A stretch of DNA of 64,000 bases, taken from positions 310,001 through 374,000 of the forward strand of contig NZ_CADFDK010000006.1 in the NCBI RefSeq assembly GCF_902832885.1, written 5' to 3'. Shown here one piece after another: positions 21,469 to 28,927 of the stretch (its first letter is position 1; every line of letters starts with the position of its first letter). Origin of the DNA: Burkholderia seminalis DSM 23518 (lineage in GTDB: Bacteria > Pseudomonadota > Gammaproteobacteria > Burkholderiales > Burkholderiaceae). The translations under genes and the position numbers were made by a program. The notes under the pieces were generated by a model. It saw only the letters and a program-made list of their open reading frames with translations. It was not told where the DNA came from and searched no databases.

Positions 21469-21499
21469 TTGACACACCTCCCCGCCTTCCCCCTATACT
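21469..21499 (+). promoter_or_regulatory. Candidate sigma-70 promoter of the DUF1989 operon
   Basis: TTGACA (21469-21474) and TATACT (21494-21499) with a 19-nt spacer. The predicted start of transcription is near 21506, so the 13-bp inverted repeat at 21517-21529 would lie just downstream, where a bound repressor would block the polymerase. Confidence 0.5.
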
Positions 21500-21516
21500 C
21501 CCCGGAGCGCCAATCA

Positions 21517-21529
21517 ATTGTTGAACAAT
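21517..21529. promoter_or_regulatory. Candidate GntR/FCD operator, copy 1
   Basis: ATTGTTGAACAAT, an inverted repeat with a central G. The TTGT-N3-ACAA form fits operators of FCD-type GntR regulators. The identical 13-mer occurs at 27630-27642 upstream of the binding-protein gene, and a GntR/FCD gene lies between the two sites (22565-23239). Confidence 0.6.
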
Positions 21530-21618
21530 CAATCATGCGAATTGACGCCTGACCGGCCACCATAAAGGGTTACAGCCGGATCGACGCATCTGCCAACCTT
21601 TCCCGAGAGTACCGCGTC

Positions 21619-22479
21619 ATGTCGAACTATCCCGCTGCCTACCAGGTCACCAAGGGCTCCGTCCTGAACGTCGACGAAGCCTTTTATTCCGCGATTGCCC
21701 GGCGCCAGGACGCGCGCGAACGGATTGCCTCGCACGTCGTGCCGATCCGCAGCGGCTTCGCTTGGACAGTGCCGGCCGGCCACGTATTCCGGATCGTCAC
21801 GCTCGAGGGCCCGCAAGTCGCGGATTTCAACATCTGGAACCTGCACAATCCGCGCGAACGCATGTGGGCGTCGCGCACGCGCCAGTTGCAGGCCGCGCAC
21901 GTGACGACGTTCGACCGGCTCTGGTCGACACTACCGTATCTGCGCCCGATGGTCACGATCACCGACGACACGCTCGCCGGTTACGGCGTCGACGGCGACG
22001 GCGGCCGCGTGCACGACCTGCTCGGCACGCGCTGCGACCCGTACGTGAACAAGCTGCTGACCGGCGAGGATTTTCATTTCCACTGCCACTCGAACCTCGT
22101 GCGCGCGGTCGCGCCATACGGGCTCACCGAATTCGACGTGCACGACGTGCTCAACGTGTTCCAGTGCACGGGCCTGAACGACGACGACAAGTACTTCATG
22201 AAGGCGTGCCCCGCGAAACCGGGCGACTACCTCGAATTCTTCGCCGAAATCGACGTGCTGTGCGCGATGTCCACCTGCCCCGGCGGCGATCTGTCGGTGC
22301 CGATGTGGGGGCCCGGCGCGCGCGATCCGATCGACGTGTGCCGGCCACTCGGCGTCGAGGTGTACCGGCTCGACCCGAGCCTGCTCGAAGGCTGGTCGTC
22401 GCCGTCCGTCGCGCCGTACCGCGGCCAGCACGGCATGCAGCAGCCGCAGGCCGGCTGGCAGCACGGCGAAACGGCGTAA
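21619..22479 (+). CDS. DUF1989 family protein (urea-carboxylase-associated type)
   Basis: A 286-residue cytoplasmic protein of the DUF1989 family, whose members often sit with urea or guanidine carboxylase genes and in amino-acid breakdown clusters; the reaction is not known to me. Visible family features are IRSGFAWTVPAGHVFRIV (residues about 44-61), the QVADFNIWN core, an RMWASRTRQLQ stretch, the His-rich FHFHCHSNL segment and conserved Cys in LCAMSTCPGGD, which could bind metal. The start ATG at 21619 has GAGAG 10 nt upstream. It heads the rightward operon and is followed after 85 bases by the GntR regulator. Confidence 0.85.
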   Translation: MSNYPAAYQVTKGSVLNVDEAFYSAIARRQDARERIASHVVPIRSGFAWTVPAGHVFRIVTLEGPQVADFNIWNLHNPRERMWASRTRQLQAAHVTTFDRLWSTLPYLRPMVTITDDTLAGYGVDGDGGRVHDLLGTRCDPYVNKLLTGEDFHFHCHSNLVRAVAPYGLTEFDVHDVLNVFQCTGLNDDDKYFMKACPAKPGDYLEFFAEIDVLCAMSTCPGGDLSVPMWGPGARDPIDVCRPLGVEVYRLDPSLLEGWSSPSVAPYRGQHGMQQPQAGWQHGETA

Positions 22480-22564
22480 CCCGAGCCGCAGCCCGTAGAA
22501 TGGCGAAACGCCGCCGGCCGGCCACGCCGGCGGCGCACGATCAGGAGAGGAGCGAACGAACGGA

Positions 22565-23239
22565 ATGGCAAGCGAAAAAGCGAGAGGACAGTCGGTCGCC
22601 GACCGGATCAGCCATCAACTGCGCGAGCACATCATCAGCGGCAAGCTGCCGCCCGGCACGGCGCTGATCGAGATGGACCTCGCCGCCGAATACGACACGT
22701 CGCGCAACTCGCTTCGCGAAGTCCTGCATCAGCTCGGCCGTGAAGGGCTCGTCACGTTCGTGCGGCACAAGGGCGTCGTCGTGCGCACGCTCAACCGCCA
22801 GGACGTGCGCGATCTCTATGTCGCGCGCCGGACGCTCGAACTGCATGCGCTGAACACGGCCGAACTCGCCCAGCCGGCGCTGCTCGAAAAGATGCAGACC
22901 GCCATTCGCGCGGCCGAGCGGGAACTCGACAAGGAAAACTGGCAAGCCGTCGGCACGCACAGCCTGCGGTTTCACCAGCACATCGTCGCGCTTCAGAAGT
23001 CGGCGCTGCTCGACGAATTCTTCCGGACCATCTCGGCGCAGTTGCGTCTCGTCTTTGCGGCCGATCCCGACGAGAAGCGCGTGCAAACGCCTGACTGGAT
23101 CCAGCGCGAATACCAGATCTACGACCTGCTCACGCAGAACCGCCGCAGCGAAGCCGTTACCACGCTGGCGCGTTATCTCGACGATTCCGAACGGATGCTC
23201 GTCGAAGCGATCAAGCGCGGCCATCGCGACGCAGCCTGA
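22565..23239 (+). CDS. GntR family transcriptional regulator, FCD (FadR/VanR) type
   Basis: A 224-residue DNA-binding regulator. The N-terminal winged helix (about residues 10-75: ISHQLREHIISGKLPPG, LAAEYDTSRNSLREVLHQL) is the GntR motif. The C-terminal helical FCD domain (about 85-215) normally binds a small acid, sometimes with a metal. GAGGAG lies upstream of ATG 22565. Lying between two convergent operons that each carry the same 13-bp inverted repeat, it most likely controls both, including itself, in response to the imported compound (inference). Confidence 0.92.
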   Translation: MASEKARGQSVADRISHQLREHIISGKLPPGTALIEMDLAAEYDTSRNSLREVLHQLGREGLVTFVRHKGVVVRTLNRQDVRDLYVARRTLELHALNTAELAQPALLEKMQTAIRAAERELDKENWQAVGTHSLRFHQHIVALQKSALLDEFFRTISAQLRLVFAADPDEKRVQTPDWIQREYQIYDLLTQNRRSEAVTTLARYLDDSERMLVEAIKRGHRDAA

Positions 23240-23244
23240 CGCCA

Positions 23245-23265
23245 CGCACCGCACGATGCGGTGCG
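23245..23265. terminator. Hairpin between convergent GntR and EctC-like genes
   Basis: CGCACCGCA pairs with TGCGGTGCG (9 bp, loop CGA), 5 bases after the GntR stop and 23 bases after the end of the EctC-like gene on the other strand. No clear T-run on either side, so it may be a weak two-way terminator. Confidence 0.5.
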
Positions 23266-23288
23266 CAACGGCCCGACCGCACACGGGG

Positions 23289-23687
23289 TCAGGCTTGCCG
23301 TTCAGCCGGAAGCGCGTAGCTGCCGTCTTCCCGATGCGTCTCGAGCCCCGTCAGCGGCGGATTGAACACGCACACGAGATGCAGGTCGCCGCGCGTCGCA
23401 CGCAGGATATGCGGATCGTTCAGGTTCAGCGCATAGATCGTTCCGGGCGTGATCCGATGCACGGTGCCGGTCGCCGTGTCGACCACCTCGCCCTCCCCGG
23501 CCACGCAGTAGTTGGTCTCGAAGTGGTTCTTGTAATGCAGATGCAGTTCCGCGCCTTCATGCACGCGCGTTTCGTGGACGGAGTAGCCAACGCCGTCCTG
23601 CCTGACGATCATGCGCTTGCTGTCCCAGCCCGGGCCGCGCGCATGGCGTTCGGTATTGGCAATATCGGCCGATCTCACGACGATCAT
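23289..23687 (-). CDS. Solitary ectoine synthase (EctC)-like cupin
   Basis: A 132-residue single-domain cupin with the length and sequence course of ectoine synthase (starts MIVVRS, ends near NPPLTGLETHREDGSYALP). The three residues reported as iron ligands in EctC (Glu57, Tyr85, His93) are at the same numbers here, and Trp21, Arg25, Thr40, Tyr52 and His55, part of the reported substrate pocket, are also kept. EctC closes the ring of N-acetyl-diaminobutyrate to ectoine, but no ectA or ectB is in the window. Lone EctC proteins are known, and EctC can also act on glutamine in side reactions. Here, beside an amidase and amino-acid transporter, it probably acts on another substrate. AGAGGT precedes the ATG. 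Confidence 0.88.
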   Translation of the reverse strand: MIVVRSADIANTERHARGPGWDSKRMIVRQDGVGYSVHETRVHEGAELHLHYKNHFETNYCVAGEGEVVDTATGTVHRITPGTIYALNLNDPHILRATRGDLHLVCVFNPPLTGLETHREDGSYALPAERQA

Positions 23688-23748
23688 AAGTACCTCTGAA
23701 TAGTGACGATGAAAGATGACAAGGCGATCCTTGCCGCGGGGAAACGCG

Positions 23749-25116
23749 TCATGCGAAACCGGTCAGCGTCCGTTCGACCGTGGCCGCGACATCGAAGAGC
23801 CATGCGTCTTCGCCGCGGCGCCCGGTGATCAGCAAGCCGACAGGCTGCCTGTTCCGCAGGTCGCCCGGCACACTGATGCTCGGCAGATCGAGCCGGTTGG
23901 CGAATTCGGTCAGCCTGAACGCCCGCGCATTCTGTGCGAGATACACGGCTTCGTCGGCCAGATCGGCCAGGCGCGGCGGCAGCATCGGCACCGTCGGCGT
24001 CAACACCGCATCCGCGTCGCCGAGTTCGGCGTGGTATGTATCGGCAAGCGCGGCGAGACGCAGCAAAGCCGCCGCGTAGTCGTGCGCGCGCACGTGCTCG
24101 CCCGCCGCGATGCGCGGCCCGACCAGCGGATCGTAGCGGTCCGCGGCCGTTGCGAGGCGCGCGCGATGCAGCATGAACGCCTCCGCGGCGATGATGCCGC
24201 CCGTGCGGGCGACGGCACCGGCCTCGGCCACGCAATCGAGCCGCTTGCGCAGGATGCGCGCACCCTGCGCGGACAGCCGGGACAACCATCCGTCGAACGC
24301 GCGGCCGACCACGGGATCGAGGTCGTCGGTCGCAAATGGCTCGGGCACGATGAACGTGAAGTCGCGAATGGTTGCCGGCGCCGCCCGTTGCAGGCCGCGT
24401 CCGTGCAGCACCGCGTCCGCACGCCGGCACAGGCGGACCGTCGCGGCCAGCAAGCCCGGTACGTCGAAGCTGGTCGACAGAAGCTGCATGCCGCCGGTCG
24501 CATAGCGTCCGCGCGACGGCTTGAATCCGGTCACACCGCAGAATGCGGCTGGAATGCGCGCGGAACCGCTCGTATCGGAACCCAGCGACAGCTCGGCCGC
24601 GCCGAGCGCCAACGATACGGCCGCGCCCGAACTCGATCCGCCGGCGACCCGCTCGCGCCGTGCATCGAGTGGCGTCATCGGCGTGCCGTACGCGTGGTTC
24701 ACGCCGAGCGCGCCATACGCGAACTCGGTCATCGCCGTCTGCGCCACCACGACGGCACCGGCACGGCGCAGCGCCGCTACCGGTGGGGCGTCGGCGCGCG
24801 CCGGCAGCGCGTCCGCCAGCACGCGCGAACCGGCATGCGTGACCCAGCCTTCGCAATCGAAACAGGCCTTCACCGCCAGTACGGCCCCGGCCAGCGGCGC
24901 ATCGGCCGTCCCGGCGCGCAACGACGCGTCCATTGCCCGCGCTTCGCGGGTCGCCGCGTCGTCACGACGCGCGAGCCATGCCGTTTCGATGTCGCCGGGA
25001 TGCGCGTTCGCGCGTTCCAGACAGGCGAGCAGTCGCTCGGCACACGCATGATCGTGCATGTCGCTCAGCCGGAAAGCCGTCGGGTCCATTCCTGCTCCGA
25101 TCCAGTGGTCCGTCAT
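23749..25116 (-). CDS. Amidase signature family hydrolase
   Basis: A 455-residue cytoplasmic amidase that hydrolyses a C-N amide bond. The Ser-cisSer-Lys triad region is intact: Lys in AVLAVKACFDCEG (about residue 83), GGSSSG (about 158) and the nucleophile Ser in LGSDTSGSARIPA. The substrate cannot be read from sequence; GatA-like, urea- or amino-acid-amide-cleaving enzymes share this fold. ATG at 25116 overlaps the transporter stop by four bases (ATGA), so the gene is translationally coupled to uptake. The EctC-like gene follows 61 bases later. Confidence 0.9.
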   Translation of the reverse strand: MTDHWIGAGMDPTAFRLSDMHDHACAERLLACLERANAHPGDIETAWLARRDDAATREARAMDASLRAGTADAPLAGAVLAVKACFDCEGWVTHAGSRVLADALPARADAPPVAALRRAGAVVVAQTAMTEFAYGALGVNHAYGTPMTPLDARRERVAGGSSSGAAVSLALGAAELSLGSDTSGSARIPAAFCGVTGFKPSRGRYATGGMQLLSTSFDVPGLLAATVRLCRRADAVLHGRGLQRAAPATIRDFTFIVPEPFATDDLDPVVGRAFDGWLSRLSAQGARILRKRLDCVAEAGAVARTGGIIAAEAFMLHRARLATAADRYDPLVGPRIAAGEHVRAHDYAAALLRLAALADTYHAELGDADAVLTPTVPMLPPRLADLADEAVYLAQNARAFRLTEFANRLDLPSISVPGDLRNRQPVGLLITGRRGEDAWLFDVAATVERTLTGFA

Positions 25117-26615
25117 GCAAAGTGAACGTGCTTCAGAAAATCCTTCACGCGCGCGTCCGCGCTGCCGCGGATCCGCTCCGGCGGCACGTCGTACAGGATG
25201 CGTCCGTTCTCCATGAACACAATCCGATCGGAAACCTTGAACGCGAAATTCATTTCGTGGGTCACGATGACCATCGTCATCCCTTCTGCTGCCAGCGTCT
25301 CGACGACCTTCAACACTTCACCGACGAGTTCGGGATCGAGCGCCGATGTCGGCTCGTCGAACAACATGATCGACGGCCGTGTCGCGAGCGCACGCGCAAT
25401 CGCGACACGCTGCTGCTGGCCACCCGACAACTGGTGCGGATACTTGTTCGCATGTTCGAGCATCCCGACCTTCGACAGCAGCGACAGTGCCTGCAGCCGG
25501 ACCGCCGCCGTATCGGCCTGCCGGTGATAGCACGGCGCCATCGTCACGTTCTGCAGCGCGGTGCGATGCGGAAACAGGTTGAAGCCCTGGAACACCATGC
25601 CGATATCCAGGATGCGCGCGTCCGACACGCGCGGCGGATGCGAAGCGGACGCGCGGATGAACGATACGCCGTACAGGTCGATCTCGCCGGCACTCACCGG
25701 CGCGAGGCCGTTGATGGTACGGATCAGCGAGGTCTTGCCGGAGCCGGACGGGCCGATGATCGACACGACCTGCCCGGGCGCGACGTCGAGATGAATATCC
25801 TTCAGCACCTCGTGGCGGCCGTAGCGCTGCTGCACGCCTTTCACGCGCAGTGCGAATTCCGCGCTCGCCCGCGGTCTGGGCTCGACAGCAGGCACCGACA
25901 GCGGCAGTTCGAGATCCGCGTGGCCTGACTGCGCGGGCGTGCGGCGGCTGACGTCGAGGTGCCTCTCGAGATAACCCAGCAGCCGGCTGAACACCGTGAC
26001 GATCAGCACGTAGTAGAACGCGACGGCCAGCATCGTTTCGAACACAAGGAAGTTCTGCGTGTAAAGCCGTTGTCCGACGAGCAGGATCTCGGCAAGCGAT
26101 ATCACGGACACCAGCGACGTGAGCTTGACGATCGTGATGAACTCGTTCGCGAGCGCGGGCAGCGCAATGCGGATCGCCTGCGGCATCACGATCAGCCGCT
26201 GGATGCCGGTAAAGCGGATCCCGAGCGCGCGCCCCGCCTCGATTTGCCCGGGCGGCACCGACAGAATCCCGCCGCGATGGATTTCCGCGAAATACGCGGT
26301 TTCGCTCAGCACCATCGCGATCAGGCCGGCCGTGAACGGATCGGACAGCACCACGCTGGTCGCGGGGAAGACCTGCGGGAGGTTGTAGATGAAGACCAGC
26401 AGCACGAGCAGCGGCAGGCTGCGGAAGAACCAGATGTACCCGGCCGCCGCGCGCTTCAGCAGCGGCCGGTGCGACTGCCTCGCGAGCGCCACCGGAAACC
26501 CGAGCAACACGCCGAGCCCCCACGTGGCGACACTGAGTTCGACGACCACGACGCACGCGCGCCAGAAATCCGTGTCCCGCAACAGTTGAAACGCATAGTG
26601 CCAATCGAACTGCAT
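25113..26615 (-). CDS. Fused polar amino acid ABC transporter permease-ATPase
   Basis: A 500-residue single-chain fusion. Residues 1-225 are a HisM/GlnP-type permease (five hydrophobic segments, EAA-like loop EAGRALGIRFTGIQRLIVMPQA). Residues about 255-500 are the ATPase: Walker A GPSGSGKT, Q-loop MVFQGFNLF, signature LSGGQQQR, Walker B IMLFDEPTSALD, H-loop THE. Usually these are separate proteins; here a short linker rich in Pro and Glu joins them. ATG at 26615 has GAGGAG 6 nt upstream. It lies 77 bases after the binding-protein gene and is coupled to the amidase. Confidence 0.93.
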   Translation of the reverse strand: MQFDWHYAFQLLRDTDFWRACVVVVELSVATWGLGVLLGFPVALARQSHRPLLKRAAAGYIWFFRSLPLLVLLVFIYNLPQVFPATSVVLSDPFTAGLIAMVLSETAYFAEIHRGGILSVPPGQIEAGRALGIRFTGIQRLIVMPQAIRIALPALANEFITIVKLTSLVSVISLAEILLVGQRLYTQNFLVFETMLAVAFYYVLIVTVFSRLLGYLERHLDVSRRTPAQSGHADLELPLSVPAVEPRPRASAEFALRVKGVQQRYGRHEVLKDIHLDVAPGQVVSIIGPSGSGKTSLIRTINGLAPVSAGEIDLYGVSFIRASASHPPRVSDARILDIGMVFQGFNLFPHRTALQNVTMAPCYHRQADTAAVRLQALSLLSKVGMLEHANKYPHQLSGGQQQRVAIARALATRPSIMLFDEPTSALDPELVGEVLKVVETLAAEGMTMVIVTHEMNFAFKVSDRIVFMENGRILYDVPPERIRGSADARVKDFLKHVHFA

Positions 26616-26692
26616 CGAAGACTCCTCAACCCCGAAGGGCGATGCGGCCGCACCGAGCGGCACGCGATGGTCGGGTCGTGCCTGCTTCGCGC

Positions 26693-27535
26693 TTATTTCG
26701 CGGCGCCCAGCGCCCCGGCAACGTCGGCCGGCGTGGGCTCCTGCAACCCGTATTTCTTCACGAGGCTGCCGTATTCGCCGCTGCGTTTCGCGTCGCTCAG
26801 CGCGCCTTCGAGCGCGCCCTGCAGGCCGCTGTCGCCCTTCGTCACGCCCAGGCCGATCACGATCGGATACAGCAGCGTCGTCGAGCTGATTTCGATGCGC
26901 TCGTTCGTCTGCTTCGTGATCCCCTGCGCGACGGCCGCATCCTCGATCTGGACGTCGACCGCCTTTGCCATCAGCGCGGACGTCGCTTCCGGCGACGTCG
27001 GGAACTCGAGGATCGCGATCTCGCCGCGGCCGGCCGGCTTGCAGGTGTCCTGCGAGACCGCGCGCAGCTTCGGCGTCCAGGACGCGCCCTTGATCGAGCC
27101 GACCCGCTTGCCGCACAGGTCCTGCGGCGTCTTCGGCAGAAATGCGCTGCCTTTTGCGACGAGCAGCGACGCGCCCGTCTTCAGGTACGGCACGAAATCG
27201 ACCTGCTTCACGCGATCGGGCGTCACATAGAGCGCGGACGCGACGACATCGAAGCGGCGCGCCTTCATCCCGAGGATGAGGTCCGGAAAGCGTGTATCGA
27301 GGAACACCGGCTCCAGTTGCAGGTGGTGCGCCAGCATCCGCGAGAACTCGGCGTCGAAGCCGGCGGGCTTGCCGGCATCCAGGTACGCGTACGGCGGATA
27401 CGTGAGATCCGATCCCACCAGCAGCGTGCCGGACCGCACCGTCTGCAGCGGCGACGCCGCTGCGAGCGAGCACGCGAAGGCCAGCGGCACAAGCGCGCCG
27501 CGGAGGAAACGTCGAAGCGGAAGACGAGCGGACAT
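26693..27535 (-). CDS. Amino acid ABC transporter periplasmic binding protein
   Basis: A 280-residue family-3 solute-binding protein. A signal peptide (about residues 1-27) is followed by the lobe 1 start LLVGSDLTYPPYAYLD, the substrate-site stretch DVVASALYVTPDRVKQVDFVPY and the hinge and lobe 2 region. Members bind polar amino acids and opine-like compounds; the ligand here is unknown. AGGAG lies 8 nt upstream of ATG 27535. First gene of the leftward operon with the fused permease-ATPase, amidase and EctC-like protein. The candidate operator lies about 95 bases upstream of the start. Confidence 0.93.
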   Translation of the reverse strand: MSARLPLRRFLRGALVPLAFACSLAAASPLQTVRSGTLLVGSDLTYPPYAYLDAGKPAGFDAEFSRMLAHHLQLEPVFLDTRFPDLILGMKARRFDVVASALYVTPDRVKQVDFVPYLKTGASLLVAKGSAFLPKTPQDLCGKRVGSIKGASWTPKLRAVSQDTCKPAGRGEIAILEFPTSPEATSALMAKAVDVQIEDAAVAQGITKQTNERIEISSTTLLYPIVIGLGVTKGDSGLQGALEGALSDAKRSGEYGSLVKKYGLQEPTPADVAGALGAAK

Positions 27536-27955
27536 GGCGAAGCTCCTGGGTTATTCGGCTCCCGCGCTGAAACGCCACAACGCCTCCCGCACGCCGCCCT
27601 GCGCGGCTTTTCGGGATTTTTCGCCGAAGATTGTTGAACAATTTCGGCCGATTCTGACCAGTTCAAATTGAAATCTGAATTCGGGTTTACGCGGCACACG
27701 GCGTCGGCGGACACGCCACGGGCGTGCACGCACAGCCGGTCGCCCGGCGCATGGAACGGGTCATCAAAAAGGAGCAAGGAACTCGCACGGACGAGGCCTG
27801 GGACGGCGTCCGTCGAGATACGGCGCCGCGGGCACGACGCGTGTTGCGGGGATCAGGAGGCGGGTTTCGGCATCCGGCACGGACGGCGCCGAGCGGGTTC
27901 GCGGCCTCCGCCGCCGCTGCTTCGCAGGCCGGGAGGCCAGCGGATCCGGGCACCG
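27536..27955. other. Intergenic region upstream of the binding-protein operon
   Basis: About 420 bases without a gene. It carries the second copy of the GntR-type inverted repeat (27630-27642). The interval 27643-27700 is AT-rich and likely holds the leftward promoter (a TTGAAC on the minus strand near 27668). The remainder shows only shadow ORFs. Confidence 0.45.
27630..27642. promoter_or_regulatory. Candidate GntR/FCD operator, copy 2
   Basis: ATTGTTGAACAAT, identical over 13 bases to the repeat at 21517-21529. It lies about 95 bases upstream of the binding-protein start. Two identical sites at the outer ends of two convergent operons support joint control by the GntR protein at 22565-23239. 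Confidence 0.6.
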
Positions 27956-28030: not shown

Positions 28031-28927
28031 TCAGTACTGCGCCTGGTCCGTCGGATTCTTGAACAGCTGCTTCATCTCCGGCGACAGCGGATAGTTGAGG
28101 CTCACGCCCTTCGGCGGAATCGGCTGCATGAACCACTGGTCGTAGAGCTTCTCGGCCGCGCCCGACGTCTGCATCTTCGCGATCACGCCGTCGACGACCC
28201 GCTTGAACGCCGGATCGTCCCTGCGCATCATGCACGCGTAGTTTTCGTGGACGAGCGGCGTGCCCGACACCGTGTACGCGCCCGGGTTGCGGTCCTTCGC
28301 GATCTCGCCGTACAGCAGCGGCTCGTCCATCACGAACGCCACCGCGCGCCCGGTCGTGACGTTCATGAACGCTTCGGCGTGATCCTTGGCGCTGATGATC
28401 GTCATGTTCATCGCCTTCTCTTCGTTGAGCTTGCGCAGCAGGCGCTCGTCCGACGTGCCGGCCGTCGTCGCGACCGTCTTGCCGGCCAGGTCCGCGAAAT
28501 CCTTCACGCCCGAGTCCTTGCGCGTGCTGAAGCGAATGCCGTACAGAAAAATGCTGTTCGAGAACGCGGCCTGCTTCTGCCGTTCGAGCGTGTTCGTCGT
28601 CGACCCGCACTCGAAATCGATCGTCCCGTTCTGCAGCAGCGGAATCCGGTTCTGCGACGTGATCGGGATTTCCTTCACCGTGAGGTTCGGCGCATTCAGA
28701 TCCGTCTTCAGTTGATCGATGATGCGCGACGCGATGTCCCGCGAGTAGCCGATGTTCTTCTGCTGGTTGTCCGAATACGAGAACGGCACCGACGACTCGC
28801 GAATGCCGAGCGACACGACGCCCGTCTCCTTGATCTTCTTCAGCGTACCGGTAAGGGCCTGTGCGTGCGCGGCGCCCGCCAGCGCGCAGGACAGCGCGAC
28901 AGCCAGCCAACGGAAACGGCGATCCAT
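28031..28927 (-). CDS. Glutamate/aspartate-type ABC transporter binding protein (GltI-like)
   Basis: A 298-residue periplasmic binding protein. A signal peptide ends at AAHAQA (about residue 23). The mature protein shows GltI/AatJ features: IKETGVVSLGIRESSVPFSY, GYSRDIASRIID, CGSTTNTLERQKQAAFSNSIF (in parts) and VSGTPLVHENYACMMRRDDPAF. It is alone: no permease or ATPase gene lies next to it, so it must use a transporter encoded elsewhere or be a leftover. AGGAGATACGC precedes the ATG. It is separated from the amidase operon by a terminator and lacks the 13-bp operator. Confidence 0.92.
   Translation of the reverse strand: MDRRFRWLAVALSCALAGAAHAQALTGTLKKIKETGVVSLGIRESSVPFSYSDNQQKNIGYSRDIASRIIDQLKTDLNAPNLTVKEIPITSQNRIPLLQNGTIDFECGSTTNTLERQKQAAFSNSIFLYGIRFSTRKDSGVKDFADLAGKTVATTAGTSDERLLRKLNEEKAMNMTIISAKDHAEAFMNVTTGRAVAFVMDEPLLYGEIAKDRNPGAYTVSGTPLVHENYACMMRRDDPAFKRVVDGVIAKMQTSGAAEKLYDQWFMQPIPPKGVSLNYPLSPEMKQLFKNPTDQAQY

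Follow-up and report, generated by a model that had tools for sequence, protein, structure and literature searches.

The 64,000-nucleotide stretch of Burkholderia seminalis DSM 23518 analysed here (contig NZ_CADFDK010000006.1, positions 310,001 to 374,000; hereafter the window) comes from a genome of 8.0 Mb in 55 contigs. It carries a six-gene cluster in which a solitary look-alike of the ectoine synthase EctC seems to be wired into an uptake-and-breakdown set rather than into ectoine production.

Two convergent operons and a shared palindrome

The cluster is made of two operons that face each other, the forward one (21619-23239, +) ending at 23239 and the reverse one (27535-23289, -) at 23289. 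The forward operon encodes a DUF1989 protein of 286 residues, a predicted zinc enzyme (21619..22479, +; Pfam PF09347, 199.9 bits for a cut-off of 27), followed by a GntR/FCD transcriptional regulator of 224 residues (22565..23239, +; Pfam GntR 58.6 bits, cut-off 27, and FCD 45.8 bits, cut-off 24.3). The reverse operon starts with a family 3 solute-binding protein (280 residues, 26693..27535, -; SBP_bac_3 97.7 bits, cut-off 26.4). Next come an ABC permease and ATPase of the polar amino acid type, fused in a single chain of 500 residues (25113..26615, -; BPD_transp_1 69.9 bits, cut-off 26.4, and ABC_tran 109.5 bits, cut-off 25), an amidase of the amidase-signature family (455 residues, 23749..25116, -; Pfam PF01425 218.8 bits, cut-off 27) and the EctC-like cupin (132 residues, 23289..23687, -; Pfam Ectoine_synth PF06339 176.2 bits, cut-off 27). 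The start of the permease-ATPase was refined to the ATG at 26615 (501 codons including the stop), and its gene overlaps that of the amidase by 4 bases. Open frames and Pfam matches above cut-off bore out the six genes, in the order and on the strands given by the first-pass annotation of the window.

About 100 bases before the start of the DUF1989 gene, and again about 100 bases before that of the binding-protein gene, lies the same 13-base palindrome, ATTGTTSAACAAT. The first copy (21517..21529, ATTGTTGAACAAT) is the predicted operator of the DUF1989-GntR operon and the second (27630..27642) that of the transporter-amidase-EctC operon. The palindrome occurs exactly twice in the window, for an expectation of 0.00, and a search allowing two mismatches returned the same two sites. 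The right end proposed earlier for the cluster, 27642, coincides with the end of the second copy, but the palindrome had not been named. A scan of the window for sigma-70 promoters and terminators gave nothing beyond chance.

Both copies are kept in all seven other Burkholderia loci that show the two promoters, and in locus L173, from a betaproteobacterium of another family. Exact copies (TTGTTNAACAA) stand before the binding-protein gene in Shinella, in Brucella tritici, on a Klebsiella plasmid and, twice, on a Paraburkholderia plasmid, and Paracoccus has a copy with one mismatch. In the Shinella (L018), Brucella (L021) and L173 loci the longest open frames span the palindrome, and the next ATG past the site was taken as the start. 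The palindrome thus precedes homologous operons in other genera, some of them without EctC. A single copy within the permease gene of locus L030 is probably there by chance. No site was found in the other 214 loci fetched (1,394,649 bases, partly overlapping), among which are seven DUF1989 plasmid regions and some amidase-EctC loci without GntR. EctC-amidase loci that have a MocR regulator carry no palindrome at their promoter, which fits with GntR being the protein that binds it. We predict that the palindromes are GntR/FCD operators. The earlier description of the cluster as self-contained and GntR-controlled has in this way gained sequence evidence, in the form of one likely operator common to both operons.

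The EctC-like enzyme and its amidase partner

The EctC-like protein belongs to the EctC family by PF06339 and by the NCBIfam model PRK13290 (180.6 bits, above the cut-off of 128). Its AlphaFold model (predicted local distance difference test, pLDDT, 87.9) had 5bxx, 5by5 and 5onn as top PDB matches, and the eight best matches were all ectoine synthases; in the collection searched, the closest named protein was from Burkholderia sp. BCC0506 (98%). Alignment confirmed, in window numbering, the iron ligands Glu57, Tyr85 and His93 that had been read from the sequence. At the iron-, substrate- and product-binding positions of the P. lautus EctC, the window enzyme has W21, S23, R25, H38, T40, Y52, E57, Y85, H93 and F108. 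Position 38 is Asn in P. lautus, and His in the window enzyme and in 73 of 76 ectB-linked enzymes.

For a tree, 163 EctC sequences from the fetched loci were reduced to 147 rows by removing 16 near-copies and rows under 100 residues. The sample is biased towards window-like proteins, the best 30 loci having been fetched per search, and many inner forks of the tree, built on 132 columns, are unresolved. The window enzyme belongs to a clade with 26 rows (SH-aLRT 98), of which 21 are adjacent to an amidase gene, five are not, and none is adjacent to ectB; the 76 ectB-linked EctCs all lie outside this clade. Residue 59, two after the iron ligand Glu57, is Asn in 26/26 clade members versus Val in 76/76 ectB-linked enzymes, and the window protein, with Asn, departs from every sampled ectB-linked EctC. 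The other 45 rows have Val (16), Cys (15) or Asn (14). Because residues 56-70 form a single strand in the model, strand geometry indicates that residue 59 should face the metal cavity, on the same side as Glu57.

When 84,980 species genomes were scanned for the window EctC by a pattern-based search, the best 30 loci were retrieved, one of which (L039) is only a partial match of 36%. The six genes stand together in seven of eight Burkholderia loci, and the eighth, on a 3.9 kb contig (L015), shows four of them. The full set is also present in Paracoccus (L022) and Brucella tritici, and the Shinella locus has all of it except DUF1989. The betaproteobacterium of another family (L151/L173) carries the set as well (EctC 75%, DUF1989 86%, GntR 60% and amidase 59% identical); its binding-protein gene (L173:13467-14300, -) has an in-frame stop near the end, from sequencing error or decay.

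The tightest pair of the cluster is amidase and EctC, which adjoin in 18 of the 30 related loci. The five plasmid records with an amidase match at E<=1e-60 all have EctC next to it (three of them read as regions). Among 397 genomes of the order of Shinella, with at most four candidates scored per genome, five amidases came out best (E<=1e-90) before a drop in score. Four of them adjoin EctC; in the genome of the fifth, an Asn59 EctC lies on a separate contig. The first-pass annotation had proposed searching for the same gene set in other Burkholderia and Proteobacteria, and the neighbours are indeed conserved together there. Chance adjacency is rejected by this recurrence in related loci and in another family, and the cluster is more tightly bound together than could be seen from the window sequence.

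At the genus level, a close EctC (at least 90% identity) was found in 14 of 65 Burkholderia genomes. A second, distant EctC-like protein (44-53% identity) is present in eight of the 65 (loci L187, L188 and L191 among them), alone in seven and together with the close one in one of the 14. It has Cys59 in seven cases and Val59 in one, and in three regions read its gene has no adjoining amidase.

Ectoine genes, sister clusters and the other enzymes

The window EctC is the single EctC of the genome. No EctA was found in this genome at E<=0.001, and the search for EctB gave aminotransferase matches below cut-off alone (best 231.8 bits, cut-off 552.2). The absence of ectA and ectB, earlier stated for the window, therefore extends to the whole genome, and ectoine biosynthesis with ectAB located elsewhere in it is rejected. 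Likewise, EctA reached its cut-off in none of the 19 genomes examined that carry related EctC loci; members of the clade are present in 18 of these. As for ectoine degradation, EutD (DoeA) gave no match at E<=1e-20 in the window genome, and the best EutE (DoeB) match there was 234.7 bits, under the cut-off of 402.7.

A second version of the module exists in Rhizobium, Kaistia, Pseudomonas and Neorhizobium, where the amidase-EctC pair comes with a MocR regulator and a transporter of separate subunits. The regulator of locus L031 has EhuR as its best model (363.6 bits, cut-off 480; next best 207.4), and in two Rhizobium records the transporters are annotated EhuB/C/D/A. For two sister binding proteins, the sole PDB match at E<=1e-20 was 2q88/2q89, which we take to be the ectoine-binding EhuB. 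However, compared with their counterparts in the eutDE clusters read, the sister EhuB-like proteins show 33-38% identity and the MocR regulators 26-30%. Among most of themselves they share about 65-79% (EhuB-like) and 47-65% (MocR; 36% for that of Caballeronia). By sequence, these genes group with one another and are clearly distinct from the eutDE-linked ones. The EhuB name in the Rhizobium records was rejected as a proof of ectoine uptake, the L206 protein being 33-38% identical to eutDE-adjacent EhuB-like proteins of four genomes. In the window cluster the regulator is a GntR with FCD, not a MocR of the EnuR/EhuR type.

The binding proteins of the two versions differ as well. In an alignment with E. 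coli and Ehu-type proteins (in which the L173 sequence is incomplete), the GntR-type binding proteins, among them that of the window, have retained the Arg as well as the Asp of amino-acid-binding proteins, presumably the residues that hold the carboxylate and the alpha-amino group in the E. coli proteins. In Ehu and Ehu-like proteins the Arg is present and the Asp is not. The GntR-type proteins have in addition a Tyr and a Trp unseen at those positions in five E. coli proteins. This suggests that the GntR-type and the Ehu-like binding proteins take different ligand heads. The alignment, together with the enzyme families, fits the initial proposal of uptake plus chemistry on an amino-acid-like nitrogen compound.

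The DUF1989 protein matched PDB entry 3di4 (E=4.8e-76), and besides the PF09347 domain it has three cysteines (Cys139, Cys156 and Cys220) that align with cysteines of TMAO demethylase. It stays under the cut-offs of the urea-amidolyase-associated models TIGR03424 (66.6 bits for 284.7) and TIGR03425 (46.8 bits for 205.95), which we take to be CgdAB (UAAP1/UAAP2), and far below the curated cut-off for TMAO demethylase too. Carboxyguanidine deiminase belongs to the DUF1989 family (PMC11271267), and so does the zinc-binding domain of TMAO demethylase; the ligands named for that zinc are spaced in a similar way (PMC12560246).

Homologues of the DUF1989 protein are carried by Klebsiella, Enterobacter and Citrobacter plasmids (71% identity) and by Paraburkholderia (84%). 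DUF1989 is separable from EctC and the amidase: one Klebsiella and one Paraburkholderia region have an operon of binding protein, permease-ATPase, GntR and DUF1989, with neither EctC nor amidase. Elsewhere it comes after LamB/YcsF, carboxyltransferase and biotin carboxylase genes, or after an Ehu-type transporter, or it precedes a pyroglutamyl peptidase (two Azospirillum plasmids) or M24 and M20 hydrolases; in three further regions read, no such partner adjoined it.

In the amidase, identified by PF01425, the motif GGSSSG at 159 and a Lys at 83 are presumably catalytic. Among PDB entries, an uncharacterised amidase matches it best (5.3e-42). Its relatives of known structure also include biuret hydrolase (1.8e-32) and, at 9.6e-32, allophanate hydrolase, and GatA scores as well as these two. 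The allophanate and biuret hydrolase models were not reached (TIGR02713 186.5 bits, cut-off 511.05; AtzE family model 188.4 bits, cut-off 425.75).

A possible scavenging pathway and its alternatives

We lean, with slightly better than even confidence, towards a substrate-inducible module that scavenges nitrogen, and perhaps carbon, with EctC opening a cyclic amidine and the amidase cutting an amide. The binding protein and the fused permease-ATPase would import an amino-acid-like compound that holds, or is able to form, a cyclic amidine, or else an acylated diamino acid. The EctC-like iron cupin, with Asn59 for Val by the metal ligand, would interconvert amidine and amide, most likely as a hydrolase opening the ring. 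The amidase would then split the resulting amide into an amino acid and a small acid, carbamate or ammonia, and DUF1989, a predicted zinc C-N hydrolase, could act in parallel on this compound or on a related one. Both operons would be repressed by GntR/FCD sitting on the palindromes, which it would leave once substrate or product binds. The gene families, the conserved pairing, the absence of ectA, the Asn59/Val59 split and the shared palindromes were computed here; the direction of the EctC reaction, the order of steps, GntR as binder and repressor, and the substrate class are what we infer. The sister clusters, in which amidase and EctC are coupled to an EhuR relative and Ehu-annotated transporters, also speak for the scheme.

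Several observations weigh against this scheme. The ten binding residues of the P. lautus EctC are kept in the window enzyme, or show the usual His at position 38, so that ring closure is possible. The link to an amidase and to Asn59 is imperfect: the amidase does not directly adjoin five of the 26 clade members, three amidase-adjacent EctCs (L062, L067 and L108; two with Asn59, one with Cys59) lie outside the clade, and so do the 14 other rows with Asn59. Concerning regulation, the palindrome is absent from seven of the eleven DUF1989 regions read on plasmids. Where an R. leguminosarum operon does carry it, the adjacent GntR is only 29% identical to that of the window, and a homologue of the window GntR was not found in the S. 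meliloti stretch. The cluster contains no transaminase or dehydrogenase that would finish a catabolic route, and we know of no ligand for any of its members.

More tentatively, in a generalisation that we would not yet back, the Asn59/Cys59 branch of 'ectoine synthases' may consist of ring-opening amidine hydrolases from undescribed nitrogen-catabolic pathways. The clade would be paired with a dedicated amidase, DUF1989 would be an alternative entry enzyme, and unrelated GntR/FCD and EhuR-like MocR regulators would have been recruited.

Among other explanations, a substrate of the glutamine or 5-oxoproline type such as ADPC, though unlikely, survives best. EctC would convert it to glutamine and DUF1989 to 5-oxoproline, and the amidase or a 5-oxoprolinase would give glutamate. 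The palindrome also precedes two rhizobial operons, one of S. meliloti AK83 and one of R. leguminosarum, in which the LamB/YcsF (PxpA) gene is followed by a fused carboxyltransferase and a biotin carboxylase, with DUF1989 at the end (L242:2686-7759, L249:2719-7762); such operons are possibly an ATP-driven alternative to EctC plus amidase. The pyroglutamyl peptidase next to DUF1989 in Azospirillum points the same way. This is however guilt by association, and the palindrome is absent from the Azospirillum regions. Moreover, common glutaminases would make a dedicated glutamine amidase redundant. Conversion of ADPC to glutamine is a known side reaction of EctC, but ADPC is described as a synthetic solute (PMC5924519), and no natural source was found in the literature searches made.

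A cyclic guanidine or carbamoyl amino acid is a slightly poorer candidate, and improbable in our view. DUF1989 would turn it into a cyclic urea, EctC would open the ring and the amidase would remove the carbamoyl group, as in guanidine or creatinine breakdown. The membership of carboxyguanidine deiminase in the DUF1989 family, the biuret and allophanate hydrolases among the amidase relatives of known structure, and the carboxyltransferase and biotin carboxylase genes that accompany DUF1989 elsewhere are consistent with it. Against it stand the scores of DUF1989, far under the urea-amidolyase-associated cut-offs, and those of the amidase, for which GatA equals the ureido hydrolases, the best match is uncharacterised and no allophanate or biuret model reaches its cut-off. 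We know of no precedent for an EctC acting on a guanidine ring.

Two explanations that keep ectoine as the compound are more doubtful still. In the first, N-gamma-acetyl-diaminobutyrate imported from others, for example plants, would be closed by EctC into the osmoprotectant ectoine. The conserved catalytic-core residues agree with such a salvage. The solitary EctC of P. syringae B728a was only partly active but gave ectoine in an H. elongata ectC mutant, which may count against ring opening as well, and P. syringae itself produced ectoine solely when leaves were added; however, it imported the fed precursor without forming ectoine (PMC5924519, PMC3979721). That last result would be explained if an amidase destroys the precursor. 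A frequent amidase partner able to destroy an acyl-diamino acid, the Asn59/Val59 split and control by GntR all argue against salvage.

In the second, held to be just as doubtful, EctC and the amidase would degrade ectoine or hydroxyectoine in place of EutD and EutE. EutD is missing from the window genome, and the sister clusters have a relative of EhuR and Ehu-annotated transporters. However, EutD and EutE both exceed their cut-offs in 9 of 22 genomes examined, and in 6 of 17 that have a clade EctC with an adjoining amidase. This coexistence makes a simple substitution unlikely, and because of it ectoine itself is an unlikely substrate: that one cell should devote two systems, each with a separate transporter and regulator, to a single compound is less probable than that the second serves a related one. 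The distance of the sister EhuB-like and MocR proteins from those of eutDE clusters also speaks against it. Finally, the H. elongata EctC hardly hydrolyses ectoine; its hydrolysis of ADPC, homoectoine and DHMICA is in favour of the ring-opening scheme (PMC5924519).

No function has been agreed upon for solitary EctCs from their first mention onwards (PMC3979721, PMC5924519), and the window enzyme is one of them (PMC3979721, PMC5924519, PMC6344544); Burkholderia multivorans and B. cepacia are named among the carriers (PMC5924519). The passages on solitary EctCs in these accounts report no amidase partner, residue-59 signature, operator or link to DUF1989. In full-text searches of open-licence papers, no title or opening of an abstract among the papers listed tied EctC to an amidase or to DUF1989, and none came up for ectoine-synthase-like proteins together with amidases, though a description elsewhere is possible. 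The novelty is the genomic context, not the solitary EctC itself. The earlier remark that no described pathway has this exact set holds for the context in the searches made; a solitary ectC was already known (PMC5924519), and the set is one of several versions, as DUF1989 also occurs without EctC and amidase, and amidase-EctC also with an EnuR-like regulator and an Ehu-like transporter in place of GntR and DUF1989.

Compared with known systems, the window enzyme shares fold, iron ligands, catalytic-core residues and family models with the EctC of EctABC. Unlike it, it has no ectA or ectB, carries Asn59 instead of Val59, belongs to a separate clade, and has an amidase partner and a predicted GntR/FCD regulon. 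The EutD/EutE pathway, with EnuR and Ehu or TRAP transporters, follows the same plan (importer, ring opener, amide hydrolase, regulator), and sister clusters use EhuR- and Ehu-like parts; the ring opener of the window cluster would however be an iron cupin and not an M24 enzyme, and its amidase is of the amidase-signature type. The guanidine carboxylase/CgdAB/allophanate hydrolase system likewise applies DUF1989 proteins and an amidase-signature hydrolase to nitrogen-rich carbon, presumably with a different transporter and regulator. None of its curated models is reached at cut-off here, and EctC has no counterpart in it.

EctC serves as a diagnostic gene for ectoine producers. If the scavenging scheme is true, a cupin known as a ring closer would open a ring in nature, the 'ectoine synthase' annotation would need correction in many bacteria, and residue 59 with an adjoining amidase would help to tell ectoine makers from breakers. 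The cluster context would then suggest, in a form open to testing, a role for the long-puzzling solitary ectoine synthases. Since the palindrome is shared, and since 5-oxoprolinase-like genes alternate with EctC/amidase near DUF1989, the nitrogen source can be sought among cyclic amidines, acylated diamino acids and similar compounds.

Some minor observations concern the neighbourhood and other EctC genes. Upstream of the cluster, a glutamate/aspartate-type binding protein (28031-28927, -; 405.5 bits to PRK10797) keeps its position in seven Burkholderia loci. No partner gene is common to all the other solitary EctC groups read (L178-L191). One of these groups is a clade of 14 rows with Val59, 13 from the order of Pseudomonas L031 and one from that of Paracoccus L022; in two regions read, its EctC lies between genes for a CynX/NimT-like MFS transporter and a DUF3482 GTPase (L185:8482-11569, L186:8069-11241), a candidate pair of importer and synthase for an ectoine precursor. 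In Pseudomonas and Caballeronia, EctC is followed by the same two genes (L030:7549-9538, L031:10410-12386, L205:8440-10426), which in Caballeronia are annotated DUF2817 and VOC family; those of the two Pseudomonas loci cluster with each other and look like the Caballeronia genes by eye. Lastly, in six loci from actinobacterial and Chloroflexi metagenome-assembled genomes (L020, L023, L024, L033, L034 and L038), EctC-like genes lie within about 2 kb of an aspartyl-tRNA-synthetase-like gene, followed in four of the six by a histidyl-tRNA-synthetase-like gene (identified by eye and clustering).

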